In this document: in pieces, positions 14,513 to 28,702 of the stretch
How the letters are laid out: each line of letters opens with the position of its first letter
Numbering within the stretch: the stretch's first letter is position 1
Assembly: GCA_903887005.1 (NCBI GenBank)
Contig: CAISOH010000176.1
Span: 1 to 46,505 of the forward strand
DNA from: an uncultured Bacteroidota bacterium
GTDB lineage: Bacteria > Bacteroidota > Bacteroidia > Chitinophagales > Chitinophagaceae
Reading direction: 5' to 3'
Length of the DNA: 46,505 nt
Notes under the pieces: generated by a model
Databases searched by the model: none
The model's input: the letters and a program-made list of their open reading frames with translations, nothing else
What the model was told of the DNA's origin: nothing
Program-made: the position numbers and the translations under genes

Positions 14513-14542
14513 TTGATGTACCTATAGTGTAGTTAGCTACAC

Positions 14543-14594
14543 AAAAATTCCCAAAGAGGCTGTCGGACAGCAAGGCTGGGATTTTTAGTTTTTA
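14543..14594. terminator. Bidirectional terminator between scpA and the TPR gene
   Basis: AAAAATTCCCA pairs with TGGGATTTTT (one bulged T) around an inner GCTGTC-GGA-CAGC-type hairpin. A T-rich run follows on the plus strand and an A/T-rich one precedes it. It lies between two convergent genes. Confidence 0.6.
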
Positions 14595-14613
14595 TTAACA
14601 ATCCGCAGGAAAC

Positions 14614-16659
14614 CTAAAAATTCTCATGCCTTACTTTGGCGCTTTCCGGAACATTTGGATCTTTTAACGCTGTCATGGCAGCCTGCATGCCCTGTTGCGC
14701 CCTTTCATAATCAGGTTTCAGTTTCAATGCTATCTGCCACGCCGCAATAGCATCAGCCAATTGTTTGTTTGAAAACAGCGCGCCCCCCATATTATACCAC
14801 AACTCAGCATTTGCTGAATCTATTGCGATGCCTTTTTTAAATTCCGCCACCGCTTCAGGGTATTTACCATACTTTCCGTAAGAATTCCAACCTTTTTTCA
14901 TGTAAAAATCACCAATCAGTTTATACATGCCCGGCAATGTGGGATATGTAGGATAAAGCGCTTTCACTGAATCAAAATTAGGCTTGGCCTTATCAATACT
15001 ATCTAATTTATACCATGCTATCCCCCTGTTGAGAAAAGCAGCTACGAACTTTGGATGTATTATTAATGCATGATTCAATAATCCTATTGCTTTGTAGAGA
15101 TAATCATTCTTCACTTTCATATCACTTTGAAGATCGGCAATAGTAATATAGGAGGCCGCAACATTGGCATTCACCAATACGCTGTTTGGCACAACATTAA
15201 TATCCGCGGCAAAAAGGGTACTGTCATTTTTCCATTCTGCATTACGCGTTATTGTTTTGAAACCGGATAGCACTATAATGATTGCCATAAATGCCAAAAG
15301 CGCTCTCTGCCCTGCTACAGCCGGCTTTATCTTTTCTGCTCCTTTAATCAGAAAATAGGCTATTGCTATTGCAAAACCTACAGAAGAATGATAAATAAGC
15401 CGTTCGCCCATTGTAGCTCCGATATCGAAAAAGATATTGCACACCAAAGCAAGATGAAGGAAATAAAAAGCTATTGCGAAACAAAGCACATTGCGCTTTT
15501 TAAATAATGCGATCATAGCAGCAAAAAGCCCGCCATACACTATGATTGACAACCATACAGAGAGGTTTGAAAAATCCTTATAGGGTATAGAATTGTAAGA
15601 ATAGTCAGCTGATAAAGGGTGCGGGAACAGAAGCAATTTCAGATAATTCAAAGAGGTGGAAATTTCGGTAGCCAGCTTTTCCGCATACGAAGCAAAAACA
15701 TATGGATTATTGAGCACTTCGGTCTCGGAATTTTCTCCCATTGGCGATACTATCTGGAACCTAATTGCAAGATAAACCGCTATTACTCCAAGGAAAGGTA
15801 TAACAGCAATAAGGCTTTTTTTAATGGAGTAATTCCTGAATAAATACAAGGAAAGCGGCAACAGGGCCACCATAGTAATCGCATATTCCTTTGACAAAAA
15901 CGCAAGAAAATAACAGCCAAGCGAGGCTATCAGCATTTTTATGTCCTTTTTATTCTCTTCATACTTAAAGGCGAAAATAAATGTCAGGCACATAAACAGC
16001 AGAGACATAATCTCATCCCGGCTTTTTACATTCGCTACCACCTCCGTATGTATAGGGTGTATGGTGAAAATAATAGCCGCAATAAAGGCCATTAAAGGGT
16101 AATTCTTAAATATTATATACCTCAGAAAATAAAGCAGGACTATAAGTGAAGCTATATACCAAAGCACATTAAGTATATGCCTGACATGCATATCGCTTAC
16201 TAACTTATGTTCCTGGTCACCTCTTACTCCATAAGAAATGTTTTGCTTTAACACACTGTCTATATGGTCTGCTGATGTTGCGCCTAAAAACTGCTGCTCC
16301 ATAGCGAAAGTAACAATAGACAAAGGACGGTAGCGCCCTCCCGACAACTGATTGATTGTATTCAGTTGCCGGTAATAACTATCATACGCATCCCTTGAAA
16401 GAATTTTCGGAATACCCGCAAACCCTTCCTGTACATACTCATTTTTTATGATGACTATGCCATCATCATGAGCAAATTCATTAAAGAAACTATTGAAATA
16501 AAATATTAAAGCCAGCAGGGAAATAATTATGGCCTGTACTTTAAAATCATAAATAGTAAAAGGTGGTTTAGGAATCTGCACCTCAGGCATTCCTGCTACT
16601 TTAGGTTCCTCCGTTTGCTGAATGATCTCTGCGGGTTTTATTTTCTGTTTTTTGGCCAT
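14614..16659 (-). CDS. Polytopic membrane protein with C-terminal TPRs, TMTC-like / GT-C fold
   Basis: 681 residues: a short cytoplasmic N-terminus, a first transmembrane helix at about 40-58, and then an extracytoplasmic loop with the acidic pair in AHDDG (residues about 66-67) expected of GT-C glycosyltransferases that use lipid-linked sugar donors. About 10 further membrane segments follow, then TPR repeats (about 555-660, for example AELWYNMGGALFSNKQLADAIAAW). The RYRPLSIVTF loop and FTIHPIHTEVVANVKSRDEIMSLLF match the layout of eukaryotic TMTC O-mannosyltransferases and their bacterial relatives. Target unknown; protein or surface glycan mannosylation is a family-based guess. Last gene of the minus-strand run that starts at the CCA enzyme, 57 bases after gmk. 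Confidence 0.7.
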   Translation of the reverse strand: MAKKQKIKPAEIIQQTEEPKVAGMPEVQIPKPPFTIYDFKVQAIIISLLALIFYFNSFFNEFAHDDGIVIIKNEYVQEGFAGIPKILSRDAYDSYYRQLNTINQLSGGRYRPLSIVTFAMEQQFLGATSADHIDSVLKQNISYGVRGDQEHKLVSDMHVRHILNVLWYIASLIVLLYFLRYIIFKNYPLMAFIAAIIFTIHPIHTEVVANVKSRDEIMSLLFMCLTFIFAFKYEENKKDIKMLIASLGCYFLAFLSKEYAITMVALLPLSLYLFRNYSIKKSLIAVIPFLGVIAVYLAIRFQIVSPMGENSETEVLNNPYVFASYAEKLATEISTSLNYLKLLLFPHPLSADYSYNSIPYKDFSNLSVWLSIIVYGGLFAAMIALFKKRNVLCFAIAFYFLHLALVCNIFFDIGATMGERLIYHSSVGFAIAIAYFLIKGAEKIKPAVAGQRALLAFMAIIIVLSGFKTITRNAEWKNDSTLFAADINVVPNSVLVNANVAASYITIADLQSDMKVKNDYLYKAIGLLNHALIIHPKFVAAFLNRGIAWYKLDSIDKAKPNFDSVKALYPTYPTLPGMYKLIGDFYMKKGWNSYGKYGKYPEAVAEFKKGIAIDSANAELWYNMGGALFSNKQLADAIAAWQIALKLKPDYERAQQGMQAAMTALKDPNVPESAKVRHENF

Positions 16660-16716
16660 GGTTATTTTATGATACCCAAAAATAATTATTTATCCTGTTG
16701 AAAATATATTATGGGA

Positions 16717-17286
16717 TTAGCACCCGGAAAAATTCTCCACTACCTGTATTAATTCCTCCCTGGCTTTATCAAGGTTATCATTGATAATAATACAATCGAA
16801 CCTGGAAGCGAATGCCAGCTCATGAGCAGCTTTGTTTACCCGTTCTTCAAGGCTATGTTCCGTTTCTGTACCACGGGCAATCAGCCGCTGGCGTAATACT
16901 TCCAGCGAAGGCGCTTCAATAAATATTGTTTTGCAAATATCGGGATACTTATCCCTGATGGCAAGCGCACCGTGCACATCAATGTCCACCAATGGCGATT
17001 TACCGGAATCCCAGATTCGCTGCAACTCTGCTTTCAAAGTACCGTAATACTTGCCGGTATAAACCATTTCCCATTCCACAAAAGCATCTTCTTCTATTAA
17101 TTTTTTAAACCGGTCTTCTTCATAAAAATAATAGTCTCTGCCGTCCACCTCTCCTTTCCTCGGATTACGTGTACAGGCGGATATGGAAAATGCCAGATGC
17201 GGACATGCTTCCAGCAAGTGTTTCACCAGCGTGGTTTTACCCGAACCTGATGGAGCCGTGATCACTATTATCTTTCCTGTGGACAA
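16717..17286 (-). CDS. gmk: Guanylate kinase
   Basis: 189 residues. It converts GMP plus ATP to GDP plus ADP in the cytoplasm, an essential step to GTP and dGTP. It has the P-loop APSGSGKTT at 11-19, the GMP-binding stretch STRNPRKGEVDGRDYYF-like (here SACTRNPRKGE...), EWEMVYTGKYYGT, and the DIDVHGALAIR segment. Length is standard for bacteria. It lies between the EF-Tu-barrel-like gene (62 bases upstream) and the TPR gene. Confidence 0.96.
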   Translation of the reverse strand: MSTGKIIVITAPSGSGKTTLVKHLLEACPHLAFSISACTRNPRKGEVDGRDYYFYEEDRFKKLIEEDAFVEWEMVYTGKYYGTLKAELQRIWDSGKSPLVDIDVHGALAIRDKYPDICKTIFIEAPSLEVLRQRLIARGTETEHSLEERVNKAAHELAFASRFDCIIINDNLDKAREELIQVVENFSGC

Positions 17287-17348
17287 ATGAATGCGTTAAT
17301 TATCTGCGAATAACGCAAAAAAAAACGGCTTTTTCTAATTGGAGAACC

Positions 17349-17747
17349 TTATTTGCTTTTCTGATTTGTTTGAAGTCCTAATATTTCAATGACGATACAT
17401 TCTGCCACTTTTGTTGGACCTTCCATGAAATATCCTGTTAGTCCAATGTGAATCCATTTTGAATGTGTAATTCGGAATTCAGGATTTAATATCCACATTC
17501 TTGCAGTTCCGCTTCTGTTCACTGATTTAGCATTATCAAAAATAACATTCCCATATATATCCTCAAACTCAGGATGAATCATAAAAAGCTGCCGCGGATT
17601 AGGATAATCTGGATTGTCATACCAGAAGTCTGATCTATACCCTTGGGCCGGAATGATATTTCGTCCACCCTCTTCCGGATCGTAAAAACGATAACTAACC
17701 CGAAAGTCAGCAGGATGCCCAAATTTCTTATCTAAAGTTTCATGCAT
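17349..17747 (-). CDS. Small protein resembling an EF-Tu C-terminal beta-barrel
   Basis: 132 residues with no signal peptide or membrane segment. The order of VSYRFYDPEEGGR, an aGYRSDFWYDN turn, a central F-D-x-x-x-V strand and a closing GPTKVAECIVIEI strand resembles the C-terminal barrel of elongation factor Tu (TxEEGGR...GYRPxF and ...GxGVVxEI). Stand-alone small proteins of this type occur in bacteria and are usually annotated hypothetical. No GTPase domain is present, so it cannot be a translation factor. Function unknown. It lies on the minus strand between the macrodomain gene and gmk. Confidence 0.6.
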   Translation of the reverse strand: MHETLDKKFGHPADFRVSYRFYDPEEGGRNIIPAQGYRSDFWYDNPDYPNPRQLFMIHPEFEDIYGNVIFDNAKSVNRSGTARMWILNPEFRITHSKWIHIGLTGYFMEGPTKVAECIVIEILGLQTNQKSK

Positions 17748-17902
17748 TCAGATGTATGCTTTCAAATAGAAAACAAATATTACGCCATATTTACTAATGT
17801 ATGATCTCATACTTGAACCTAATACAATTCCTAACTATAAGTACAAAAGTCGCTTTTTTTTTGAATTTTATTCGAATGAACATTCAATTCGTTTTATAAA
17901 CA

Positions 17903-18418
17903 CTAATTTCCCGAAATAACAAGCTTATTATAAATCCCGAAATTCTCATCATCAAAACAAACAAAAATTATTTCAGTAAAAGCATCAGGGTATGTCTTGC
18001 AAAAATCATTTATAGCTTTTAGCGCTATTTCCGCCGCCAATGGTTTTGGAAAACCATAAACACCCGTGCTGATATTTGGAAAAGCTATTGTTTTGATGTG
18101 GTTTTCCATTGCCAGTTGCAGGCTATTGTGATAGGCATTATGCAACAACTGATTTTCATTATTGTTGCCGCCATGCCATACAGGGCCTACAGTATGTATC
18201 ACATATTTAGCAGGCAGTTTATACCCTTTAGTGATCTTTGCTTCACCTGTTTTGCATCCATTCAGAGTCATGCATTCATCCAGCAACTCTTTTCCTGCCG
18301 CCCGGTGTATTGCCCCATCCACGCCGCCCCCGCCAAGCAACGAAGTATTTGCTGCATTTACAATCGCGTCAACATTTAATTTGGTAATATCTCCTTTTAT
18401 TACACTTATTTTAGTCAT
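17903..18418 (-). CDS. Macrodomain ADP-ribose hydrolase (O-acetyl-ADP-ribose deacetylase type)
   Basis: 171 residues, essentially one macrodomain, probably cytoplasmic. It has [35 protein letters not shown] at about 8-42, with the Asn and the GGGGVDGAI loop that bind the distal ribose, the [12 protein letters not shown] strand, and the substrate loop [10 protein letters not shown]. This matches the MacroD/YmdB class, which removes ADP-ribose from acidic residues and O-acetyl-ADP-ribose. It is 37 bases downstream of the CCA enzyme on the same strand. A PARP-like gene lies about 4.5 kb away on the other strand, but nothing in the layout links the two. Confidence 0.9.
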
Positions 18419-18455
18419 AATAGACTTGTTTAATGGAAATTGAAGGGAAGTCCCT

Positions 18456-19892
18456 TTAGTGGTTTGGGGTTTTTAAATTTAATTCTTTCGCTTTCTCAAT
18501 CAGCAATGCATAAGCCGCTTCCTGATTATTTGGTATGATCCCATCCAATATCGCTTCTCTTATCGCAGTCTTAAGTACACCTACCTCGCGCGATGGCGTT
18601 AAATTGAATATGCGCATGATCTCATCACCGGTAATAGGGGGCTGCCAGTTGCGTATCTTATCGTTTTCTTCTACTTCCCTCAACCGTTGTTTTACCAGCT
18701 CAAAATTTTCAAGATAGCGTTTTACTTTCAACCTGTTTTTGGAAGTAATATCACTTTCACAAAGTATCATCAGATCATCTATTTCTTCTCCCGCATCAAA
18801 CAGCAAACGGCGCATCGCCGAGTCTGTAATATCTTCTTTTGTAAGGCTGATGGGGCGCAGGTGCAGCAATACCAGTTTCGCCACATACTTCATGCGGTCA
18901 TTCTGCGGCAGCTTCAGTTGTTTAAAGATTTTCGGCACCATCCGCTCCCCTACTACCTCATGTCCATGAAATGTCCATCCATGGCCTTCTTCATAACGCT
19001 TGGTTGCGGGCTTGGCTATGTCATGCAGCAGCGCAGCCCAACGCAGCCAAAGATCTTCACTTTTGTCAGCAGTATTGTCCACCACCTGCAAGGTGTGGTA
19101 GAAATTATCCTTATGCCCTTTGCCTTCAATGATTTCCACTCCCGAAAGGGCAACCAGTTGCGGGAAAAATTCTTTCAGCAGTCCGCTGCTGAACAACAGA
19201 TCAAAACCAACTGAGGGTTTCTTTGCAGACATTATTTTATTCAGTTCATCAGTAATACGCTCCTGTGATACAATTTTAATGCGCTCCTTGTTTCTATTAA
19301 TCGCTTCAAAAACATCATCCACAATTCTGAAGCCATCCAACTGTGTTGCAAAACGAATTGCCCGCATCATACGCAAAGGGTCATCTGAAAAAGTAATGTC
19401 AGGGCCAAGGGGGGTGCGTATGATCTTATTCTGCAAATCTTCCACACCATTGAAGGGATCAACCAGCTTTCCAAAGTCATCTTTGTTCAGGCTTATTGCA
19501 AGCGCGTTAATAGTAAAATCTCTGCGAAGCTGGTCATCTTCAATAGTGCCGGGCTCCACCTGCGGTTTGCGGGAATCAGTAGTGTATGATTCTTTGCGTG
19601 CTCCCACAAATTCCACATCAAAACCTTCATAACGAAACTGAGCAGTCCCAAAGGTTTTAAAAAAATTCACCTGCGGTTTATGAGGAAAAGTAGCAGCAAC
19701 AGCATGTGCCAGGGCAATGCCATCGCCGGTGCAGACAATGTCCACATCCTTTGTGGGCCTGCCTAAAATCTTATCACGCACAAAGCCACCCACGAGATAG
19801 CTGCGCACATCCATTTTTGTAGCTGCCTCACTTACGTGCTCAAATAATTTAAGTTCCTGTTGAGAACAAACAATATCCATAATCGGTGGCAA
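18456..19892 (-). CDS. cca: CCA tRNA nucleotidyltransferase with HD domain
   Basis: 478 residues. It adds or repairs the 3' CCA of tRNAs from CTP and ATP. The nucleotidyltransferase head has [19 protein letters not shown] (residues 35-53, catalytic D49 and D51), then [10 protein letters not shown] (123-132) and the [13 protein letters not shown] neck (170-182). An HD phosphohydrolase domain follows (H290-D291 in [12 protein letters not shown], and [10 protein letters not shown]), as in CCA enzymes with added phosphatase activity. An internal ATG four codons on (MDIVCSQQ) is an equally possible start. First gene of the minus-strand run reaching to 14614. Confidence 0.93.
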
Positions 19893-19902
19893 AGCTATGA
19901 CA

Positions 19903-19935
19903 TTGGGCGATTCTGTGAATAAATACGTAAATTTG
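19903..19935 (+). promoter_or_regulatory. Candidate promoter for the antitoxin-like / mcrB / mcrC genes
   Basis: TAAATTTG at 19928-19935 fits TAnnTTTG exactly, 19 bases before the ATG at 19955. A weak TTGG at 19903-19906 lies 21 bases upstream of it. No other clear promoter is seen before mcrB, so the three genes may be one transcript. Confidence 0.45.
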
Positions 19936-19954
19936 AGTATAAAAATTATTCAGC

Positions 19955-20269
19955 ATGAAAGGAGTAGGTTATTTGACGGATGAAAACAATCATAAAAAAG
20001 CGGTTGTTATTGATATAAAAACCATTGAGCGTTACGATGAAGAATTAGAAGACCTGTTTGATGGCATCATAGCTGAATCACGAAAAAATGATGAAAAAGC
20101 ACCTTTGAAAAAAGTAATAAGCAATTTGAAAAAGGCAGGAAAGCTCAAATCTGAAAGCAATAGCCAAAAAGTAATTGTAAAAAGAGAACATACATTGCAG
20201 GAAAAGCTTAATAAAGCAAATCGTTTGTTATCAAGGGTTGTAAATCCCGAAATATTGAAGTTACAGTAA
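19955..20269 (+). CDS. Antitoxin-like small protein at the head of the McrBC locus
   Basis: 104 residues, charged, no signal peptide. The first 45 residues (GYLTDENNHKKAVVIDIKTIERYDEELEDL) have the look of Phd/RelB-type antitoxins found in Bacteroidota: a short strand with D-E-N-x-K-K-A-V-V-I-D-I and then an acidic helix. The C-terminal half is lysine-rich and ends in a predicted helix (HTLQEKLNKANRLLSRV). No toxin gene follows directly; mcrB starts 80 bases later. It could be an orphan antitoxin, a regulator of the restriction genes, or an unrelated protein. Confidence 0.5.
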   Translation: MKGVGYLTDENNHKKAVVIDIKTIERYDEELEDLFDGIIAESRKNDEKAPLKKVISNLKKAGKLKSESNSQKVIVKREHTLQEKLNKANRLLSRVVNPEILKLQ

Positions 20270-20349
20270 TATCATTTGCCAATAGGTGGATATTTATTGC
20301 TTTCAACCTATTCTGTCTACCTTATTTTAGCAAACTAATTGAATAAGCT

Positions 20350-21711
20350 ATGGGAAAGTCCGATGAAAAATTTAGAATTGATGATAACCGTTTTATGGCG
20401 ACTAAAGCCAACCTTAGTAGACAGGGTAACATGCTTGAAGCGGCAAAGCAAATAAGAGATTACGTTGAATCAGGGATGACTCAAGCTGATATTTCCAGAA
20501 AGATTGACGCGTCTCCTATGCATGTATCCGATTGTCTGATGCTGCTTAAAAAAGCGACTAAAAAGATCATTGAGTGGATTGAAGGAGGTCAAATTACGGC
20601 TTCCCTAGTTGTCGAAATGCTTAAAGTTATCCATCCTTTAGAAGTGGAAAATGCAATAAAGCTAACATTGGCTAAACGAGAATCAACAGAAGAACCAAAC
20701 GTTTCAGGTAAAAAACAGGTTAAACCCTTAACGAGATTAGAAATTGAAGAAGTATATGGTTTACCCGTGACTCCCAAAAGCAAAAAAGAAAATTCAATTC
20801 CAAACAAAATAAATAACATAACACAGAAATCTGCAACAAACTCAATATACAATTTCACAGAAGACACCGACAAACCATTTATTAGTGAAACTGATTTCGA
20901 CAAAGCAGTTGCTTTGTTAAAACGAAAGAAGAATATCATTTTGCAAGGGCCTCCGGGAGTTGGCAAAACATTCATTGCCCGGAAACTTGCTTATGAAATT
21001 ATGCATGAGGTGAAAAATGAAAATATTGAAATGATACAGTTTCACCAATCCTACAGTTACGAAGATTTCATACAGGGGTTAAGGCCAACTTCAAAAGGCG
21101 GTTTTGAATTGCGAAATGGAATTTTTTACACTTTCTGTCAAAAAGCGTTGAAGCATCCAAAAGAGGAATTCTTTTTTATTATTGATGAAATCAACAGAGG
21201 CAATCTGAGCAAGGTTTTTGGTGAGTTAATGATGCTGATAGAAGCTGACAAACGACATGAAAAATATGCATTAAAGCTAACCTATACCGAAGATGAAAAA
21301 GACCGGTTTCATGTTCCTGAAAACCTGTTTATAATAGGAACAATGAATACTGCCGACAGGTCATTAGCTATTGTTGATTATGCTTTGAGAAGGCGTTTTG
21401 CATTTTTCCCGTTGCGTCCTGACTATGGAGAAACTTTTAAGTCCTTCCTTTCCGAAAAGGGAGTTTCGGATAATCTGGTTGAACACCTTTGTTTATCAAT
21501 AACAAAAGTGAATAGCAAAATAAAAGAGGATAAAAATCTTGGTGATGGATTTCAAATTGGGCACAGTTATTTTTGCTCATTCAATAAAGGCGACGATGAA
21601 AGCAAATGGTGGGATGACATATTGAGTTTTGAATTGCAACATCTGTTAGATGAAATTTGGTTTGATGATTCCGCAAAAGCAACTGAAATGATTAAAATTC
21701 TGTCAAGATAA
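20350..21711 (+). CDS. mcrB: McrB-type AAA+ GTPase with an N-terminal ParB/KorB-like HTH domain
   Basis: 453 residues. The C-terminal two thirds is a McrB motor: Walker A GPPGVGKT at 200-207, an HQSYSYEDFIQGLRP segment at 232-246, Walker B FFFIIDEINRG at 274-284, the McrB signature MNTADRS at 332-338, an arginine-rich sensor LRRRF at 346-350, and the FQIGHSYF close at 401-408. McrB normally hydrolyses GTP to drive the McrC nuclease. The N-terminus is unusual. Instead of a DUF3578 or other modified-base reader it has a ParB-type helix-turn-helix (about 28-110: GMTQADISRKIDASPMHVSD, then WIEGGQITASLVVEML), with no ParB CTPase box. A low-complexity linker (115-175) joins the two parts. Two bases separate it from mcrC. 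Confidence 0.85.
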   Translation: MGKSDEKFRIDDNRFMATKANLSRQGNMLEAAKQIRDYVESGMTQADISRKIDASPMHVSDCLMLLKKATKKIIEWIEGGQITASLVVEMLKVIHPLEVENAIKLTLAKRESTEEPNVSGKKQVKPLTRLEIEEVYGLPVTPKSKKENSIPNKINNITQKSATNSIYNFTEDTDKPFISETDFDKAVALLKRKKNIILQGPPGVGKTFIARKLAYEIMHEVKNENIEMIQFHQSYSYEDFIQGLRPTSKGGFELRNGIFYTFCQKALKHPKEEFFFIIDEINRGNLSKVFGELMMLIEADKRHEKYALKLTYTEDEKDRFHVPENLFIIGTMNTADRSLAIVDYALRRRFAFFPLRPDYGETFKSFLSEKGVSDNLVEHLCLSITKVNSKIKEDKNLGDGFQIGHSYFCSFNKGDDESKWWDDILSFELQHLLDEIWFDDSAKATEMIKILSR

Positions 21712-21713
21712 TC

Positions 21714-22763
21714 ATGCAGATTCCAATAGAAAATATCTACTATCTGCTTTGCTATGCATGGAACAAACTGGATGAGAAAGACCGTGTTGACGTTGCCATT
21801 GACGACAAAACAGAACTGCTTGATTTATTTGCGAAGGTTCTTATCAATGCAAGCAGAATGCTCATTAAACGAGGCATTGACAAAAGCTACATTGATTATA
21901 CTTCAGAAATAGCCGGGGTAAAAGGGAAGTTAGCAATAAGCCAGACTTTAAAAAGCAATTTACTTTTTAAGCAAAAAACGATTTGCACTTTTGATGAATT
22001 TTCCGCGAATATTTTATCTAACCAGATTCTTGTCACTACTATTTACACCCTGATACGAATTAAAGGTTTAGACAATGAACTAAAAGCTGAATTAAGAAGT
22101 TTATTAAGAATGTTTCCAGGCATTGAACAAATCGAACTGAAGCCATTATTATTTAACCAGGTAAAAATCAACCGGAATAATTACTTCTATGGTTTCATAA
22201 TGAACGTTTGCCAGATTATATACGAAAGCACTTTGCCAACAGAAGAAAAAGGGGCCTACAAATTTGCAGATTTCACAAGAGACGATAAAAAAATGAATCA
22301 GCTTTTTGAAGCGTTTGTAAGAAATTTCTATAAGATTGAACAGAATAAATTTAAAATAAATAATAAGATTATTGATTGGCAGTTTTCAAGTAATGATACT
22401 GAATCATTAAAGTATTTACCTCGAATGGTAACTGACATCACCTTAGAAAATGACAACGAAAAAATAATCATTGACGCGAAATACTATAAAGACACAATGA
22501 TGGTAAATCGTAGTGGTAAAGAAAAAATAGAATCTGCCAATATGTACCAGTTGTTTAGTTATCTCCTTAACCAACAAAACCAAGACCCAAAAACAATAAA
22601 TGCAACAGGGATTTTACTCTACCCAACTATTCACGAAGAGTATAATCTTGAGTTCAAATATCAAGACCATAATATTCAAATCAGAACCGTAAACCTGAAT
22701 ACAAACTGGAAACACATTTCTTCCCGTTTAAAGCAGATAATCCAGCTCAATAATCCAATCTGA
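21714..22763 (+). CDS. mcrC: McrC-family restriction endonuclease subunit
   Basis: 349 residues, typical McrC length, cytoplasmic. The N-terminal part begins IPIENIYYLLCYAWNKL and includes the usual DFTRDD-like region before the nuclease. The C-terminal PD-(D/E)xK nuclease shows D241 in LPRMVTDI and D254-A-K256 in IIIDAKYYK, followed by the MYQLFSYL helix of this superfamily. All catalytic residues are present, so it should be active. It pairs with the McrB-like motor 2 bases upstream to make a modification- or site-dependent DNA cutter. What the complex recognises cannot be read from sequence. Confidence 0.88.
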   Translation: MQIPIENIYYLLCYAWNKLDEKDRVDVAIDDKTELLDLFAKVLINASRMLIKRGIDKSYIDYTSEIAGVKGKLAISQTLKSNLLFKQKTICTFDEFSANILSNQILVTTIYTLIRIKGLDNELKAELRSLLRMFPGIEQIELKPLLFNQVKINRNNYFYGFIMNVCQIIYESTLPTEEKGAYKFADFTRDDKKMNQLFEAFVRNFYKIEQNKFKINNKIIDWQFSSNDTESLKYLPRMVTDITLENDNEKIIIDAKYYKDTMMVNRSGKEKIESANMYQLFSYLLNQQNQDPKTINATGILLYPTIHEEYNLEFKYQDHNIQIRTVNLNTNWKHISSRLKQIIQLNNPI

Positions 22764-22795
22764 TTTGTTACAAATACAATAAATTATTACCTTTG
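22764..22795 (+). promoter_or_regulatory. Consensus Bacteroidota promoter for the 51-aa / PARP-like pair
   Basis: TTTG (22764-22767), exactly 20 bases, then TACCTTTG (22788-22795). This is a full match to the TTTG-N19/21-TAnnTTTG promoter. The start site would fall near 22802, about 11 bases before the ATG at 22813. The -33 box begins one base after the mcrC stop, so the pair is transcribed independently of mcrBC. Confidence 0.75.
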
Positions 22796-22812
22796 TTATC
22801 TAACTTTATTTT

Positions 22813-22968
22813 ATGACGGATCAAGAAATGAAAAAGCTCGAAAAAGCTTTAAAAAAGCAAAGAAAAGAGGTTAATTCCTCGAAAGAAGCTGCGGGAAACC
22901 TGTTGAGAAAACTAGGAATTATTACAGCTAAGGGAAATTTCACAAAAGCATTCAGACCTGCAAAATAA
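22813..22968 (+). CDS. 51-residue lysine-rich protein, putative antitoxin partner
   Basis: 51 residues from ATG 22813 to TAA 22968. It is mostly one charged helix (DQEMKKLEKALKKQRKEV), then SSKEAAGNLLRKLGIITAKGNFT. Short proteins with an SKEAAxxLLxxxGI core often sit just before genes of the PARP-like family that follows here. Support for it being real: the consensus promoter ends 17 bases upstream and the next ATG begins 2 bases after its stop. An antitoxin role is inferred from layout, not shown. Confidence 0.65.
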   Translation: MTDQEMKKLEKALKKQRKEVNSSKEAAGNLLRKLGIITAKGNFTKAFRPAK

Positions 22969-22970
22969 CA

Positions 22971-23576
22971 ATGTATTCAGTAAAATCAGGATTAATTATT
23001 GCTTTTCATGGATGTGATGAAAAAGTGTGCGATGAGATTGTCAGAGGCGCACCTTTTAAAGCAAGCGATAATGATTATGACTGGTTAGGGCATGGGATGT
23101 ATTTCTGGGAATATAATGAGCAACGAGCGCTTGAGTTTGCTATAGAGCAGAAAAATAACCCACGTGCTGAAGGCCAAACCATTAATACTCCAGCCGTTTT
23201 AGGTGCGGTTCTTGATTTACAACACTGTTTAGATTTAACGGATAGCAAGTACCTGGGTTTTGTCAAAAAGAGTTATGACGTTCTTTCAGATTCTTATAAA
23301 TTATTCGGGAAAGATCTGCCAAAAAATAGTTCTGCCAAAAGCTCGAATGATATATTATTACGAAGATTAGATTGCGCTGTTATTGAAAATCTTCACTCTC
23401 TTATGGATAGGCCATTTGATTCTGTAAAAGGTATATTCGTTGAAGGAGAACCTTTATATGAAGGCGCTGGTTTTAACACAAAAAACCACATTCAAATTTG
23501 TATCAGAAATCCAAACTGCATAAAAGCATTTTTCTATCCAAGGAAACTTGAGCCATGGCCGGAAAAGAAAAAGTAA
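22971..23576 (+). CDS. PARP-like ADP-ribosyltransferase-fold protein, putative toxin
   Basis: 201 residues, no signal peptide. The N-terminus shows a PARP/diphtheria-toxin-type NAD site: AFHGCDEKVCDEIVRG (His15 as H of the H-Y-E triad), then NDYDWLGHGMYFWE (Tyr47 as Y) and an RALEFA helix, which line up with the HG...GxGIYF...A pattern of PARPs. The third residue may be the Glu in IFVEGEPLYEGAGF (about 155-168). Small proteins of this type are widespread, mostly annotated hypothetical. With the 51-residue gene 2 bases upstream and its own promoter it looks like a toxin-antitoxin pair or an anti-phage effector. NAD consumption or target modification is inference. Confidence 0.6.
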   Translation: MYSVKSGLIIAFHGCDEKVCDEIVRGAPFKASDNDYDWLGHGMYFWEYNEQRALEFAIEQKNNPRAEGQTINTPAVLGAVLDLQHCLDLTDSKYLGFVKKSYDVLSDSYKLFGKDLPKNSSAKSSNDILLRRLDCAVIENLHSLMDRPFDSVKGIFVEGEPLYEGAGFNTKNHIQICIRNPNCIKAFFYPRKLEPWPEKKK

Positions 23577-23586
23577 TCTAAAGTAG

Positions 23587-24159
23587 TTACCCCCTCAATA
23601 CCTCAATCCCCCCATCCTCCATTATCCTCACCAATCGCGAAGGCGCATGAACCGCATCATCGTCCTGCCGGTACTTTACGACATAATCAACACTATTTAC
23701 AATAGCATTGTTAATCATTTTAAATATGGTGGAAGCTGGCTGCCCGCTGATATTGGCAGAGGTGGAAATGATGGGTTTCCTGAACCGTTTTATCAACGTC
23801 TTACAAAATGGATCAGTTGTTACCCTGATAGCAATACTCCCATCCCTGTTCACCACATTTTCAGGAAAATCAAGGGCATTTTCATAGATAACTGTGGTAG
23901 GCTTATCAAAGCTTTCTATGATTGCAATAATATCAGGGTGAGGAGCGGCAACATACTGTAATACATCTCGTGCATCGGCAAGCAATACTATCATGCTTTT
24001 GTTTTTCGGGCGTTGCTTTACAGCAAATATTTTTTCCGCTGCAACCGCGTTCATAGCATCGCAACCAATGCCCCATATCGTATCAGTAGGATAGAGTATC
24101 ACCCCACCCTGCTGCAGGACTTTTATACAGTTCCTTATGTCGTTTTCAAAATCTTCCAT
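23587..24159 (-). CDS. tsaC: L-threonylcarbamoyladenylate synthase (TsaC/YrdC/Sua5 family)
   Basis: 190 residues. It makes threonylcarbamoyl-AMP from threonine, bicarbonate and ATP, the first step of the t6A37 tRNA modification, in the cytoplasm. It has GGVILYPTDTIWGIGCDAMN at about 19-38, the nucleotide-binding KQRPKNKSM, and STSANISGQPAS. The short (TsaC) form, without the Sua5 C-terminal domain. It is downstream of the family 9 glycosyltransferase gene with a 43-base gap that contains a heptamer repeat. Confidence 0.93.
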   Translation of the reverse strand: MEDFENDIRNCIKVLQQGGVILYPTDTIWGIGCDAMNAVAAEKIFAVKQRPKNKSMIVLLADARDVLQYVAAPHPDIIAIIESFDKPTTVIYENALDFPENVVNRDGSIAIRVTTDPFCKTLIKRFRKPIISTSANISGQPASTIFKMINNAIVNSVDYVVKYRQDDDAVHAPSRLVRIMEDGGIEVLRG

Positions 24160-24169
24160 AGCAAGCTAA

Positions 24170-24190
24170 GTCAAAAGTTAAAAGTCAAAA
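24170..24190 (-). repeat. Heptamer tandem repeat upstream of tsaC
   Basis: GTCAAAA, GTTAAAA, GTCAAAA on the plus strand (TTTTGAC-type units on the coding strand), 11 bases before the tsaC ATG. Three units of exactly 7 bases. Confidence 0.65.
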
Positions 24191-24202
24191 CCCATGAGTT
24201 AT

Positions 24203-25213
24203 TTATATCGTTTTTGATGTCCACCAGAGCAATTGTTCATTCGTTATTTCTTTCGCACAGCGAAAATGCCCTTCGGGACACGCTTTATGTCCGTGAAGCC
24301 CGCAGGGCCTGCAATACAGCCTTTCTTTTATTTCCACTACTTTGCCATTTTTCCGCAAAGGCCCAAATCCGAATGCAGGTACCGTAGAGCAGAAAACAGC
24401 AGTAACAGGGGCATCCATTGCCGATGCGAAATGCAGCGGAGCAGAATCATTGGCATAGTTCATTCCAGCGCCCTTCATTAATGCGGCAGATTGTAAATAA
24501 CTCAGTTTGCCGCATAAATTTTTTACGCCAGGATGCACCACTTTACTCAAAATAATTTCCCCAAGTGCTTTATCTCCAGGAGCCCCGAGTAAATGAATAG
24601 AGTAATGTGCAGGCAATTGATTTATCAAACTCACCCATTGTTCCGCGGGAAACTGTTTTGTAAACCATACTGAGGACGGCGCTATGCAGATGTAAGGGGC
24701 ATTTTGATATTGCTTTACATGATCATAATCCGCCTCTGACGGATACATCTGTGGCATCGCAGACTTATTGTCAGTAATATCCGCTATAAGCATTTGATTA
24801 CGCTCCACTTCATGAACAGGATTTTCGCTGTATGGTTCAGAAATAGTATGGGTCACTTTTTTGGTATAACAAAAAGAAAATGGGTTTTTATCAAATCCGG
24901 CCATGTAGGCTGCACCTGAAAGAAATGTGATAAAACCAGAAGATGCGAACCTATGCACATTAACTATATGGGTATAACCTTCTTTACGTATCTGCATGCC
25001 AATACCAAACAGATTTCTAATCTTTTTGCTTTTTTTGTCCCACACTATCAGATTCGTTATAAAAGGATGCTGCTGCAAAAGTCCTTCATTGCCCTTACGC
25101 AACAAAAAGTCGATCTGAGCCCCCGGATAACTGGAATGTAATTTTTCAACAAGGGCGGTAGCAAGCACTACATCCCCTGTAAAAGCTGTTTGTATCACTA
25201 AAAATTTAGGCAT
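24203..25213 (-). CDS. Glycosyltransferase family 9 (heptosyltransferase-like)
   Basis: 336 residues from the ATG at 25213. This start was chosen because MPKFLVIQTAFTGDVVLATALVEKL is the expected first strand and loop of the GT9 fold; an in-frame ATG at 25261 would add 16 residues unlike the family. It has an APSSVWFTKQFPAEQW donor-side segment, the LLGAPGD strand, NDSAPLHFASAMDAPVTAVFCSTVP (the GT9 nucleotide-sugar motif), and a Cys-rich tail (YCRPCGLHGHKACPEGHFRC) typical of this class. Predicted role: adding heptose or a similar sugar to the LPS core at the inner face of the inner membrane. Specificity cannot be read. Confidence 0.85.
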   Translation of the reverse strand: MPKFLVIQTAFTGDVVLATALVEKLHSSYPGAQIDFLLRKGNEGLLQQHPFITNLIVWDKKSKKIRNLFGIGMQIRKEGYTHIVNVHRFASSGFITFLSGAAYMAGFDKNPFSFCYTKKVTHTISEPYSENPVHEVERNQMLIADITDNKSAMPQMYPSEADYDHVKQYQNAPYICIAPSSVWFTKQFPAEQWVSLINQLPAHYSIHLLGAPGDKALGEIILSKVVHPGVKNLCGKLSYLQSAALMKGAGMNYANDSAPLHFASAMDAPVTAVFCSTVPAFGFGPLRKNGKVVEIKERLYCRPCGLHGHKACPEGHFRCAKEITNEQLLWWTSKTI

Positions 25214-25268
25214 CTGACCGGCAAAATTACAATTGTATAACCTTTTGGAAGGTTTTAACAATAAAAAA

Positions 25269-25299
25269 TCTGATTTTTGGATTTTTGGTACTAAATTTG
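25269..25299 (+). promoter_or_regulatory. Candidate promoter for the DUF1573 genes
   Basis: TCTG (25269-25272), 19 bases, then TAAATTTG (25292-25299). The -7 box is exact; the -33 box has one mismatch. Translation starts at 25338. Confidence 0.5.
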
Positions 25300-25337
25300 T
25301 TTTCTACAATTGCATAAATAAGTAAAATTTAATAGAA

Positions 25338-25853
25338 ATGAAAAAAACCATTCTATCATTATGTTTGTTGCTTCTATCGGCCGGTATTGCCATGGCACAG
25401 CATAAAAAGCACAAAGGAGATGATGCTTCAAATGATAAGCAACAAACAGTAAGCGCTACTGCGCCCGCAGCAACCTCTGCACCACAAACTACTTTAAAAG
25501 CCGATGATATGGCCTTTAAAGATATGAGCCATGATTTCGGTGTTGTTCCTGAAGGCCCGGATGCTACTACCGAATTTACCTTTACGAATACCGGTAAAGA
25601 GCCTATTGTAATTCAAAAAGCGCAACCTTCGTGCGGATGTACGGTTCCTTCTTTTTCAAGCGAGCCTATTTTACCAGGTGGAAAAGGTACTATCAATGTA
25701 GCTTACCATACCAAGGGAAGGCCAAATGCTTTTACTAAAACAATTTCTGTCGTATCTAATGCCGGCACAAAAGTATTGACCATAAAAGGCAATGTTGAAA
25801 AAGCGCCTACCGGGTCCGTACCTGAAAATAATTCAATGATAAAAACCAATTAA
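25338..25853 (+). CDS. Exported DUF1573 protein, copy 1
   Basis: 171 residues: signal peptide (1-20, ending AMAQ), a His/Lys-rich then Ala/Thr-rich linker (21-55), and one DUF1573 domain (about 58-155). The domain shows HDFGVVPEGPDATTEFTFTNTGKEPIVI, the CGCTVP turn, LPGGKGTINVAYHTKGRP and a closing TIKGNV strand. This is an Ig-like (ASPM/SPD-2/Hydin-related) fold common in Bacteroidota, of unknown function, expected in the periplasm or on the surface. Two close relatives follow in the same direction. Confidence 0.85.
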   Translation: MKKTILSLCLLLLSAGIAMAQHKKHKGDDASNDKQQTVSATAPAATSAPQTTLKADDMAFKDMSHDFGVVPEGPDATTEFTFTNTGKEPIVIQKAQPSCGCTVPSFSSEPILPGGKGTINVAYHTKGRPNAFTKTISVVSNAGTKVLTIKGNVEKAPTGSVPENNSMIKTN

Positions 25854-25901
25854 CCGCTTAATTTTAACCAAACAACAAGTTTTAACCACACAACAAAAAT
25901 T

Positions 25902-26459
25902 ATGAAGAAAGTATTCATCACGCTTCTCTGCCTTTCGATAAGCGCAGCAGCCCTTAAAGCACAAGATAAAAAAACAGTAGCACCTCCGCCAAATGCAGCA
26001 GCAGCGGCAGCATCGCCAACACCTGCTTCCCAGGCTCCTGGCGCTCAAACTGCACCTACAACTCCGCCTGTTGATCCAAAAGCCGGAAAGTTTAAATTTG
26101 ATGAAGAGACTCATGATTTCGGTACTGTACCTGAAGGCCCGTTGGCAGAGTATGATTTCGTTTTTAAAAACGTTGGTAAAAAACCAATAACTATTTCCGA
26201 CGCTCATGGTTCATGCGGTTGTACGGTTCCTACATGGCCTCATGAGCCTATCCTGCCAAAAAAATCAGCTAAGATCCATGTTGCCTATACAACTAACGGA
26301 CGCCAGGGAATGATAAATAAAGATGTTATTATCAACTCTGATGCACAACAAAATACAATGAGATTGCATATTACAGGTAATGTAACGCCAAAACCTGCTG
26401 AAAAACCTGCAACAACTACACCTCCTCCTCCACCACCACCAGCTCCGGCCGGTAAGTAA
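25902..26459 (+). CDS. Exported DUF1573 protein, copy 2
   Basis: 185 residues: signal peptide (MKKVFITLLCLSISAAALKAQ), an Ala/Pro-rich linker (25-60), DUF1573 (about 65-165: HDFGTVPEGPLAEYDFVFKNVGKKPITI, CGCTVPTW, LPKKSAKIHVAYTTNGR), and a proline-rich tail ending in a PPPPPPPAPAGK run that could cross the peptidoglycan. It begins 48 bases after copy 1. Both genes have ACAACAAAAATTATG just before the start, a shared 5' leader. Confidence 0.85.
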   Translation: MKKVFITLLCLSISAAALKAQDKKTVAPPPNAAAAAASPTPASQAPGAQTAPTTPPVDPKAGKFKFDEETHDFGTVPEGPLAEYDFVFKNVGKKPITISDAHGSCGCTVPTWPHEPILPKKSAKIHVAYTTNGRQGMINKDVIINSDAQQNTMRLHITGNVTPKPAEKPATTTPPPPPPPAPAGK

Positions 26460-26488
26460 GTGTAGCTGGCTAAACGTTAAGAATATCC

Positions 26489-26516
26489 AAAATGGTTGGC
26501 ACTTGCCAACCATTTT
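26489..26516 (+). terminator. Perfect 12-bp hairpin between DUF1573 copies 2 and 3
   Basis: AAAATGGTTGGC and GCCAACCATTTT around an ACTT loop. Ending in TTTT it can act as an intrinsic terminator, or on the minus strand likewise. It would partly separate copy 3 from copies 1 and 2. Confidence 0.7.
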
Positions 26517-26551
26517 AAAATAAGAATAGTCTTAGTTAACAAACAAAAATT

Positions 26552-27001
26552 ATGAGAAAAATATTCATCCCGTTATTCTGCCTGCTTTTAGGCGCTCTCA
26601 CCCAGGTAAAAGCACAAACCAAAGCTGACATTGCCAAACAAAAAATTGAAGGCCCGCAATTTAAATTTGAAGGCGGCGACACCCACGATTTTGGGGTGGT
26701 AAAAAGAGGGCCTGTTGCAATGCACAAATTTGAATTTACAAACGTAGGCAATCAACCTATTATTATTACCAATGTCACCCCTTCCTGCGGCTGCACCAAT
26801 GTGGACTGGAATAAAAGCCCCGTGTTACCCGGCCAGAAAGGCTTTATCCAGTTAGGCCTCAAAACAGAGGAACAACATGGCACTTTTAATAAAGAAGTTT
26901 ATATTCAGTCTAATGCATATGTTCCTAACGGCGAGAAGCGCTACACCTTATATATTAAGGGCAACGCAGTAGATGAAGACCCCAAAAAGAAGGAAAAGTA
27001 A
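26552..27001 (+). CDS. Exported DUF1573 protein, copy 3
   Basis: 149 residues: signal peptide (MRKIFIPLFCLLLGALTQVKAQ), then directly a DUF1573 domain (about 38-140: THDFGVVKRGPVAMHKFEFTNVGNQPIII, CGCTNVDW, LPGQKGFIQLGL, LYIKGNAV). It has no long linker, unlike copies 1 and 2. The leader again reads AACAAACAAAAATTATG. The basic end (PKKKEK) has no sorting domain. Function unknown. Confidence 0.85.
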   Translation: MRKIFIPLFCLLLGALTQVKAQTKADIAKQKIEGPQFKFEGGDTHDFGVVKRGPVAMHKFEFTNVGNQPIIITNVTPSCGCTNVDWNKSPVLPGQKGFIQLGLKTEEQHGTFNKEVYIQSNAYVPNGEKRYTLYIKGNAVDEDPKKKEK

Positions 27002-27037
27002 ATAAGAAAAAATGAAATTTGTTAGGTTATTCGTCAC

Positions 27038-27069
27038 TTAGGCTACTTTAGGGTAGCCTAAATTTTTTA
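27038..27069 (+). terminator. Intrinsic terminator after the DUF1573 genes
   Basis: TTAGGCTAC and GTAGCCTAA (9-bp stem, TTTAGG loop), followed by ATTTTTT. It lies 37 bases after the stop of DUF1573 copy 3. Confidence 0.85.
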
Positions 27070-27098
27070 TACCTTGACCCTGAACTGCACAGCCTACT

Positions 27099-27119
27099 GT
27101 CAATTGTAAATTGTCAATT
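27099..27119. repeat. Heptamer tandem repeat
   Basis: GTCAATT, GTAAATT, GTCAATT: three 7-base units a few bases beyond the stop of the minus-strand gene at 27125. Same style as the units at 24170 (GTCAAAA). Confidence 0.6.
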
Positions 27120-27124
27120 GCCCG

Positions 27125-27733
27125 CTACTCCACAAACCCCTTTATCAGCGCTTTACACGCTACATCTGAAAGCCCTAGCCATGCGATCTTCGCTATTTCA
27201 GGTTCCTGACCCTGACCTAAACTCACCAGTTCCAAATCCCCCTGTTCATTCCGGCCATGATAATAAGCGCTTAACTTTTTACCAATCCGCTCTATAACAA
27301 AGGTACTCGTAGCTTCATTATCAGAGAAATCTGCAAAAACATCATTATTTTTACTCATGGGATTAGCAGAAGGTCTTAACCGCATAGCAAAAGTTTCCAT
27401 GCAAATGTCCGGATAATCATCATATTCAATTGCTTCTATTGCAGTCCATTCAAAACCTCCGTCAAATTCATAGCCGCGACCCGCAATATCTATTCTTATA
27501 AGATCGCCTCTTCGTGCGCGCCGGTTGACGATCCTGCCATTTACATCAGTTAATTTGAATTCCACATCTGCGATGCCGCTGAATTTCTTCCAGTTATTTA
27601 CATCCAGCAGCCTTTCCTTAGCATCCACAAACCAGTCTTCAGCATCTTCCGTGGTTGGAGTGGTAATGGTATGCGAAATATTTTTTTCAAGGCCTTCAAG
27701 TTGTGTTGGTACGAGGTAGTGATTTTCCTTCAT
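27125..27733 (-). CDS. Conserved hypothetical cytoplasmic protein
   Basis: 202 residues from the ATG at 27733 (MKENHYLVPTQLEGLEK). An upstream ATG at 27847 would add 38 residues with a Phe-rich start that looks untranslated, but it cannot be excluded. No signal peptide or membrane segment. A middle part reads VEFKLTDVNGRIVNRRARRGDLIRIDIAGRG... and is followed by an acidic strand and FVIERIGKKLSAYYHGRNE, suggesting a compact beta-rich fold. I do not recognise the family. It is convergent with the DUF1573 genes and divergent from the FKBP gene. Confidence 0.6.
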   Translation of the reverse strand: MKENHYLVPTQLEGLEKNISHTITTPTTEDAEDWFVDAKERLLDVNNWKKFSGIADVEFKLTDVNGRIVNRRARRGDLIRIDIAGRGYEFDGGFEWTAIEAIEYDDYPDICMETFAMRLRPSANPMSKNNDVFADFSDNEATSTFVIERIGKKLSAYYHGRNEQGDLELVSLGQGQEPEIAKIAWLGLSDVACKALIKGFVE

Positions 27734-27853
27734 TAGGACATGGTTTATATAATACACAGAAAATTTCATGCCAAACTTTTCAAAATCACCCCAAAAAGTA
27801 AAAAAAAATTTAAAATAGGAATTATTGTCCGAAATCATACATTTCACTATCTA

Positions 27854-27909
27854 CTTTTGAATTTTGAATTTCGACTTTTGACTTTTGGCTTTTGGCTTTT
27901 GGCTTTTGA
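27854..27909 (+). repeat. Heptamer tandem repeats upstream of the FKBP gene
   Basis: Two TTTTGAA units (27855-27868), a short break, then five CTTTTG(A/G) units (27875-27909), each exactly 7 bases. It ends 33 bases before the FKBP ATG. Largest member of the heptamer family in this window. Confidence 0.75.
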
Positions 27910-27942
27910 ATTATCTCTGCCTACTTTTGAGCAAAAATCATT

Positions 27943-28377
27943 ATGGGCATAGCAGACAGACTATTCAATTTAAAAGCAGACCAGGCAGCAACCAATCTAA
28001 AGGCAGGGCAAGAGTTCCTGGAAACAAACAAGTTGAAACCGGGGGTTACCGAATTACCAAGCGGCCTCCAGTATGAGGTAATAACACAAGGTACAGGCCC
28101 AAAACCCACTGAATCTAACAAAGTAACCTGCCACTATCATGGCACATTAATTAATGGCACCATCTTCGACAGCTCGGTACAACGGGGACAACCTGCAGCA
28201 TTTCCGCTCAACCAGGTCATCAAAGGCTGGACAGAAGGACTTCAGTTAATGCCCACTGGCAGCAAATGGCGTTTCTTCATTCCGCCTCACCTCGGATATG
28301 GCGACCGCCAGGTAGGCCCCACAATCGGCCCTAACAGCACACTTATTTTTGAAGTGGAACTGCTGGGAATAAATTAA
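27943..28377 (+). CDS. FKBP-type peptidyl-prolyl cis-trans isomerase
   Basis: 144 residues, no signal peptide, so likely cytoplasmic. After a short helical N-terminus (1-35, a Mip/FklB-like dimerisation stub) comes an FKBP domain: LPSGLQYEVITQGTGPKPTESNKVTCHYHGTLINGTIFDSS, PLNQVIKGWTEGLQLMPTGSKWRFFIPPHLGYG, and GPNSTLIFEVELLGI. The active-site aromatic positions (Y, F-D, V-I-x-G-W, Y-G) are all present. It catalyses proline isomerisation during protein folding. Monocistronic, closed by the hairpin at 28433. Confidence 0.92.
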   Translation: MGIADRLFNLKADQAATNLKAGQEFLETNKLKPGVTELPSGLQYEVITQGTGPKPTESNKVTCHYHGTLINGTIFDSSVQRGQPAAFPLNQVIKGWTEGLQLMPTGSKWRFFIPPHLGYGDRQVGPTIGPNSTLIFEVELLGIN

Positions 28378-28702
28378 TTATTCCATTATTCGGAATATAT
28401 TTTCTTATCCGGAATAGTTTAAATATAAAATTCAAGGCTTTATGCCTTGTTTTTTTATTATTTGGCTATTTTCACACAATTATTCCTTGTGCTGCCCTTA
28501 CCTCCTGTTTAGGACAATATCATTAAGTTAAGAATAAATGACCCGGAAAAGGTCAAATGTTTATAGCAAAATGGAATAAATAATGGTTCCGATGCCGAAG
28601 GTATCGTATGTGATAAAGCTGAATAAAGCCTTTCAGGCTCTTAATAGATGAATTTGCTTTTTAAGGTGATATAACTCACCTGATACAGGAAATATAAAAC
28701 TT
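28378..28702. other. Intergenic region between the FKBP and adenosine deaminase genes
   Basis: 325 bases. Besides the terminator at 28433-28457 I see only a weak AGGTGA-TATAAC-TCACCT inverted repeat (28664-28681) about 20 bases before the next gene, and a degenerate box-like run at 28590-28645. No gene. Confidence 0.5.
28433..28457 (+). terminator. Intrinsic terminator after the FKBP gene
   Basis: CAAGGC-TTTAT-GCCTTG followed by a run of seven or more T. Confidence 0.8.

Follow-up and report, generated by a model that had tools for sequence, protein, structure and literature searches.

What does a McrBC system recognise when a ParB-type helix-turn-helix (HTH) domain stands where its modified-base reader is expected? 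The question is raised by a mcrBC pair in a 46,505-nucleotide contig of an uncultured Bacteroidota bacterium, here called the window. McrB hexamers bind DNA through their N-terminal domain, GTP hydrolysis is stimulated by docked McrC, and complexes at sites far apart interact and cut (PMC7680126; papers are cited here for the excerpts available to us). The McrB readers described in that source include DUF3578 (methylcytosine), YTH (6mA) and the B3 domain of LlaJI (site-specific).

The motor and nuclease of the mcrBC pair

The two genes and their parts are listed in Table 1. The McrB-like protein carried GPPGVGKT at residues 200–207, IIDEINRG at 277–284 and MNTADRS at 332–338, and its Walker A, Walker B and NxxD signature, which mark an McrB AAA+ GTPase, fell in columns invariant among 24 aligned sequences. 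The McrB model NF008457 matched residues 160–445 with 315.3 bits; its full-length cut-off of 637 bits was not reached, as expected because the N-terminal domain differs. PF07728 scored 93.8 bits, above its cut-off. mcrC started 2 bases past the end of the mcrB-like ORF on the same strand, and its product scored 348.3 bits with NF007277 (curated cut-off, 338) and 120.5 bits with PF10117. The pair thus has the adjacent McrC with a PD-(D/E)xK nuclease that characterises McrBC. The roles of D241, D254 and K256 in this nuclease are assigned from family knowledge. PADLOC named neither gene Mcr; McrB matched a REase_II model best, with 78.9 bits, and the best matches of McrC were weak ones to Cas4 models. 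GTP-dependent DNA cleavage by the pair would be expected from the McrBC family.

Table 1. Features of the mcrBC locus, in window coordinates.
Feature	Position	Strand	Evidence or remark
mcrB-like gene, 453 aa (ParB-type HTH, linker and McrB AAA+ GTPase)	20350..21711	+	ORF; NF008457, PF07728
ParB-type helix-turn-helix domain, residues 27–105 (predicted recognition helix, about 56–68)	20428..20664	+	PF17762, phrog_1033, predicted fold, Foldseek
Linker, residues 106–167; DNA similarity to L045 resumes at its end	20665..20850	+	DNA alignment; low pLDDT in parts
McrB GTPase motor	20851..21708	+	Walker A 200–207, Walker B 275–280, NTAD 333–336; invariant alignment columns
mcrC, 349 aa, PD-(D/E)xK nuclease subunit, intact D241...D254-A-K256	21714..22763	+	NF007277, PF10117
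Two short imperfect inverted repeats in the 80-base mcrB leader	20281–20290/20303–20312; 20318–20326/20342–20350	.	Possible operator, not significant

The N-terminus of the McrB-like protein is no longer than called, because an in-frame stop lies two codons 5' of the ATG at 20350. A leftover older reader 5' of mcrB was ruled out, as the 80-base gap to the preceding ORF is too small for a domain.

The pair resembles the Type IV system McrBC of Escherichia coli K-12 in the NF008457 match of its AAA part. We take the likeness to extend to the NTAD signature, the D...DxK nuclease of McrC and the gene order. The K-12 system has a DUF3578/ADAM methylcytosine reader (PMC11090510), whereas a ParB-type HTH takes its place here. 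CoCoNuTs are defined by an NxD signature and coiled coils (PMC11090510); the signature found here was NTAD, that is, NxxD.

A ParB-type HTH domain at the N-terminus

Against a cut-off of 22.6 bits, HTH_ParB (PF17762) scored 25.7 bits on residues 1–177 and 23.6 bits on the full-length protein. The profile phrog_1033 ('ParB-like partition protein') scored 30.9 bits (E 4.9e-7) on residues 1–151 and 28.1 bits on the whole protein; by our reading, the match spans profile positions 131–206 of 334, which is the HTH part. The whole-family model TIGR00180 (parB_part), with a cut-off of 58.45 bits, gave 22.9 bits and so fell far short. The four Pfam families listed for residues 1–177 included neither a catalogued modified-base reader nor the ParB N-terminal (CTPase) domain, so that of the features of the ParB/RepB/Spo0J family the protein has HTH_ParB without the CTPase part. 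These matches establish the identity of the domain at the level of sequence.

Residues 1–151 were also compared with ParBs directly, and the scores were judged against 2000 shuffles. All four comparisons were above chance. A profile built from 12 phage ParBs reached 18.6 bits, with 9.2 for the best shuffle. Among single sequences, L002, a phage-type ParB encoded in this genome, reached 26.0 bits (best shuffle, 13.9), the ParB of Bacteroides phage Versailles 13.3 bits (8.8) and, by a narrow margin, the genome's own chromosomal ParB (L034) 11.5 bits (9.6). The domain seems to lean to phage-type ParBs, a leaning based on L002 and phrog_1033. By score, L002 was the nearest relative of the N-terminal domain that we found, with 28% identity. 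It lies on contig C170 (L127:12854–13675) and scored 111.8 bits with phrog_1033; inspection by eye of 14 kb there revealed no phage structural gene.

The recognition helix of the McrB HTH is SPMHVSDCLMLL. The helix pattern SPxxxSxCLxL was common to all 12 aligned phage ParB rows (12 chosen of 30 loci), with which the McrB HTH shares S55, P56, S60, C62, L63 and L65; L002 has just C62 and L63 of these six fixed letters. An origin within the phage-type ParBs is tentative, because L002 is without the pattern and the Versailles ParB, which has it, scored low. The phage-type ParBs of phrog_1033 resemble the McrB N-terminus in the HTH domain, and the Versailles-like rows also in the recognition-helix pattern; they are longer and have a further N-terminal part, whereas just the HTH part is fused to McrB.

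In the structure predicted from an alignment, pLDDT was 83–89 in ten-residue blocks over residues 31–110 (mean of 151 residues, 73.5). Foldseek returned ParB, Spo0J, KorB or Noc proteins in all of the top 36 of the best 50 PDB rows, with a modest best E-value of 2.0e-3 (probability 1.00), and a phage Spo0J as the best viral match (E 2.8e-4). This agreement is not fully independent, because the input alignment included the 12 phage ParBs. Folded as a single sequence, the domain was modelled poorly (mean pLDDT 57.2); the helix order was much the same, with one helix (56–78) where the aligned model has two. Residues 27–105 are predicted from these models to fold like ParB, KorB and Spo0J.

A sequence-only reading of this DNA had named the three motor motifs, an McrC with an intact D-DxK nuclease 2 bases downstream, and an N-terminus of about 80 residues resembling a ParB-family HTH without the ParB CTPase box. 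The motifs lie where given above, and the profile search and structure prediction that it proposed agree with its account of the N-terminus. Its concern that the domain might be an already catalogued McrB reader was not borne out in PMC11090510, PMC7680126 and PMC10602043, whose available excerpts do not name such an HTH among the McrB readers. 'ParB' had no occurrence in the main text of the CoCoNuT census (PMC11090510), and an McrB with a ParB-type HTH was not found in the listed titles and abstract openings of the literature searched, which was mostly open-access.

Reader exchange and rarity of the fusion

We collected 80 McrB loci, the best 80 of at least 592 stretches from at least 500 relatives. 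The best-scoring one, L045 (uncultured Bacteroidetes bacterium Umea_bin-01667), has the same cca neighbour, a motor 78% identical and the same gene order; it differs in carrying an EVE reader in a 712-aa McrB, where the protein here has the ParB-type HTH. DNA similarity to L045 begins at about 20850 (residue 167/168) and continues into McrC. On the 5' side of this point, blastn aligned nothing but the beginning of cca and short stretches, none longer than 42 bases. Because a sister locus with the same cca neighbour and so similar a motor carries EVE, these alignments indicate that the reader has been swapped in place near residue 167. Against L045, pS was 0.80 (saturated) and pN 0.10 for the motor (286 codons), and pS was 0.64 and pN 0.07 for McrC (119 codons). 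By these values the motor is under purifying selection, and the machinery was maintained by selection as the reader changed.

Two details of L045 were recorded. Its McrC ORF (L045:4909–5292) stops at 127 aa near the contig end, where the similarity breaks off, from truncation or a contig-end error. A cca-start stretch of about 31 bases is doubled around its PIN gene (L045:1795–1825 and L045:2556–2587) in the manner of a target-site duplication.

A catalogued reader was present in all seven relatives scanned, L045 included: EVE in L003, L096, L099 and L045, MrcB_N plus EVE in L006, and Mrr_N in L004 and L005 (L006 and L096 are cut at the 5' side, and their N-termini may be longer). The slot thus usually holds modification readers, and the HTH could be one too, reading methylated adenine or a phage hypermodification, for example; the system would then be a normal modification-dependent Type IV enzyme whose reader has an unusual fold. 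In DpnI and HhiV4I, winged-helix domains do sense adenine methylation (PMC11037411), and no methyltransferase was recognised by eye beside the genes (listed ORFs, 14000–30000), as would suit an enzyme of this kind; ParB-type HTHs, however, are known as sequence readers, with KorB–operator and ParB–parS complexes among the Foldseek matches, and no ParB HTH that reads a modification came up in those matches or in the excerpts cited here. We regard modification reading as unlikely, and as the foremost of the four alternatives considered here; next in order come autoregulation, then a non-functional fusion or a misassembly, and lastly a coopted role.

The pair lies in a 3.7-kb interval between cca and a Sua5-type gene (names assigned by eye), together with a RelB-like ORF and a possible toxin-antitoxin (TA)-like pair. 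We compared this interval in 6 of 10 genus-relative stretches. It was 4 kb with TPR- and WG-repeat-like genes in L142, 1.0 kb in L144 and 0.8 kb in L145; in L141, L143 and L147 other genes adjoin cca. Judged from this comparison, the interval is a variable site, as is typical of places where defence genes are acquired. GC was 0.30–0.38 within it and about 0.38–0.50 in cca and the Sua5-type gene. This is a weak sign of import and composition proves little alone, because windows as low (0.33–0.38) lie outside the insert at 17200–18199 and 25000–25599.

The RelB-like antitoxin ORF (19955–20269, +) precedes mcrB; PF18506 stayed below its cut-off and no toxin was recognised beside this ORF. In L045 this interval contains a PIN_3 toxin-like gene. 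Directly after mcrC come a 51-aa ORF (22813–22968, +) and a 201-aa ORF (22971–23576, +), possibly a two-gene defence or TA-like pair from their arrangement and matches; the second matched phrog_14664 (unknown function) with 68.7 bits and PADLOC PD-T4-9_A with E 8.6e-7. By eye, the 201-aa product may be ADP-ribosyltransferase-like, a likeness that none of its matches supports, and a macro-domain protein just past cca (17903–18418, −; PF01661, 165 bits) is perhaps of interest for that reason.

No second HTH–McrB fusion was found among the kinship samples, McrB-locus genomes, plasmids, phages and viral contigs searched. The four kinship samples overlap, so their counts are not additive. With the N-terminal domain as query, the phylum sample (395 genomes, E 0.001) returned the own genome alone. 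Eight of 396 genomes matched in the order sample (E 0.01), own included: G794, G192 and G919 matched residues 155–192 only, which is the motor start (G192 was read); weak matches in G701, G175, G213 and a second one in G919 were not McrB by eye, and a further weak match lay in G053. The family sample gave 3 of 394 (own, G175 and G252, the last in a prephenate-dehydratase-like ORF by reading). The class sample gave 3 of 395: own, G1455, where the match lies inside a sigma-factor-like ORF, and G1264, where one of two matches was read and lies in a partition-protein-like ORF, the other being L185. The whole protein matched 54 of 294 family genomes and, among the matches listed, the own genome alone before residue 122.

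No fusion was found in the 79 genomes that contain the 80 McrB loci: 1 of 49 matched, in an aspartate-kinase-like ORF, and 0 of 30 in a search that carried no separate positive control. Plasmids gave no match to the N-terminal domain at E 0.1. The whole protein matched 323 plasmid records; among the 40 listed, one (H3) exceeded 80% coverage, and its N-terminal part reads as an unrelated winged-helix sequence. Phages gave no match at E 0.01, and viral contigs none to the N-terminal domain; 13 McrB loci in the viral contigs were not matched before residue 166. These searches reach near relatives only, because the N-terminal query missed the genome's own chromosomal ParB, which PF17762 found; they would therefore miss any McrB whose ParB-type HTH is more distant. 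The fusion, which the sequence-only reading had proposed to seek in other Bacteroidota, had no second copy among the near relatives searched.

A fusion known from one draft genome of 453 contigs, and lacking a second copy in the N-domain searches of the kinship samples, could be the recent, accidental joining of part of a ParB, or an artefact of assembly, leaving the motor without a working reader. The open 453-aa frame with a complete McrC 2 bases on argues against both. The flanking cca and Sua5-type genes fit the genus relatives on both sides, so that a misassembly would need two joins, and the HTH was modelled with high block pLDDT, helped by the phage ParBs in the alignment. We judge either origin, a fusion without function or a misassembly, decidedly improbable.

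What the HTH domain may recognise

A domain of DNA-binding type occupies the N-terminal specificity slot of McrB and would, by its place, set specificity. We transferred ParB residue numbering to the McrB HTH through an alignment with the genome's own ParB. At the parS-contact positions Q162, G170, K171, S172, N178 and R204 the McrB HTH has Q, D, A, S, D and V, and so keeps two of six. Specificity residues of ParB and Noc have been mapped, and R173 and G201 are described as 'absolutely conserved' in ParB orthologs (PMC7383237); these ParB-specific contacts are P56 and S85 here, both changed. parS is an unlikely target because the canonical contact residues are lost, and we rejected it as the target of the McrB HTH.

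The loss also bears on a role outside defence, in which an McrB-family protein would be tethered to the chromosome by its ParB HTH. PcdA, which acts in division-site choice, shows that McrB proteins can be coopted for cell-biological roles; its Walker motifs are degraded and it lacks an McrC partner (PMC10602043), whereas the Walker motifs and McrC are intact here. With the parS contacts gone as well, we consider such a role very improbable.

The HTH might instead act mainly as an autoregulator on the mcrB leader, limiting expression, with cutting specificity lost or relaxed. KorB, one of the structural matches, is a transcriptional repressor, and one of the two inverted repeats in the leader touches the start codon. 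As an operator, however, these repeats were rejected as near chance, since the best arm score was equalled in 88 of 1000 shuffles or exceeded there, and the number of repeats found in 37 of 1000, and an additional regulator domain would leave the nuclease without a target reader. Autoregulation seems quite unlikely.

Site-specific cutting has a precedent. The McrB/McrC-like subunits of LlaJI (R1 and R2) restrict unmethylated DNA at a fixed site and are accompanied by two methyltransferases (PMC1459862). LlaJI resembles the pair here in its McrBC-like motor and nuclease; it has a B3 domain (PMC7680126), whereas residues 1–177 had an HTH and no B3 match, and no methyltransferase was seen in 14000–30000. 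The McrBC of Thermococcus gammatolerans likewise pairs McrB with an unrelated reader, a YTH fold that reads 6mA (PMC7680126); its fold differs from the HTH here, and the ligand is presumably different. The locus is one of a known type with another reader. GmrSD enzymes are not known to have the McrB motor. They share with this locus the word ParB and Type IV restriction ('ParB and HNH'; PMC12839542), whereas their ParB (DUF262) domain (PMC3710099) is not the HTH found here.

These comparisons limit what the sequence-only reading had drawn from the locus. A ParB-type HTH in the reader slot, without the CTPase domain, stands; a partition-like site of the parS kind as the trigger is not supported, given P56 and S85, and 'a different mode of McrBC immunity' was too strong, as LlaJI is already site-specific on unmethylated DNA.

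On balance, we think it probable that this is a working McrBC with the HTH of a phage- or plasmid-type ParB as its target-recognition module, probably reading sequence, and that the host is spared by rare or absent sites. The HTH domain of such a ParB would have taken over the position of the modified-base reader. By analogy with other McrBCs, McrB would assemble on GTP into hexamers, the HTH domains would hold the hexamer at a DNA site, and McrC would be recruited to it, with GTP hydrolysis driving the cutting. The HTH would read a rare operator- or centromere-like sequence of an invading element rather than a modified base. DNA binding by the HTH, its preference for sequence over modification and the defence role are our inferences. 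With no methyltransferase seen nearby, a common recognition site would be self-harming; if the HTH reads sequence, self would therefore be spared by rare sites, or by a need for more than one site, and not by methylation.

A further-reaching version is doubtful: that a phage or plasmid ParB was the source of the captured reader, and that the system destroys DNA bearing the clustered centromere or operator repeats of that ParB, as a methyltransferase-free, sequence-triggered McrBC whose need for at least two sites spares the host. If true, the invader's own partition code would be turned against it.

The architecture is real and unusual, and it is an McrBC of known type with a different reader rather than a system of a new kind. 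Site-specific McrBC is already partly known from LlaJI; what differs is the ParB-type HTH as reader. It adds a domain class to the McrB readers, one that the excerpts of the three sources compared above do not name. Across sister loci the reader slot changes, whereas motor and nuclease do not. Should the HTH read sequence, this McrBC would tell self from non-self without an adjacent methyltransferase, and its target would be set by a well-studied DNA-binding fold with mapped specificity residues (PMC7383237).
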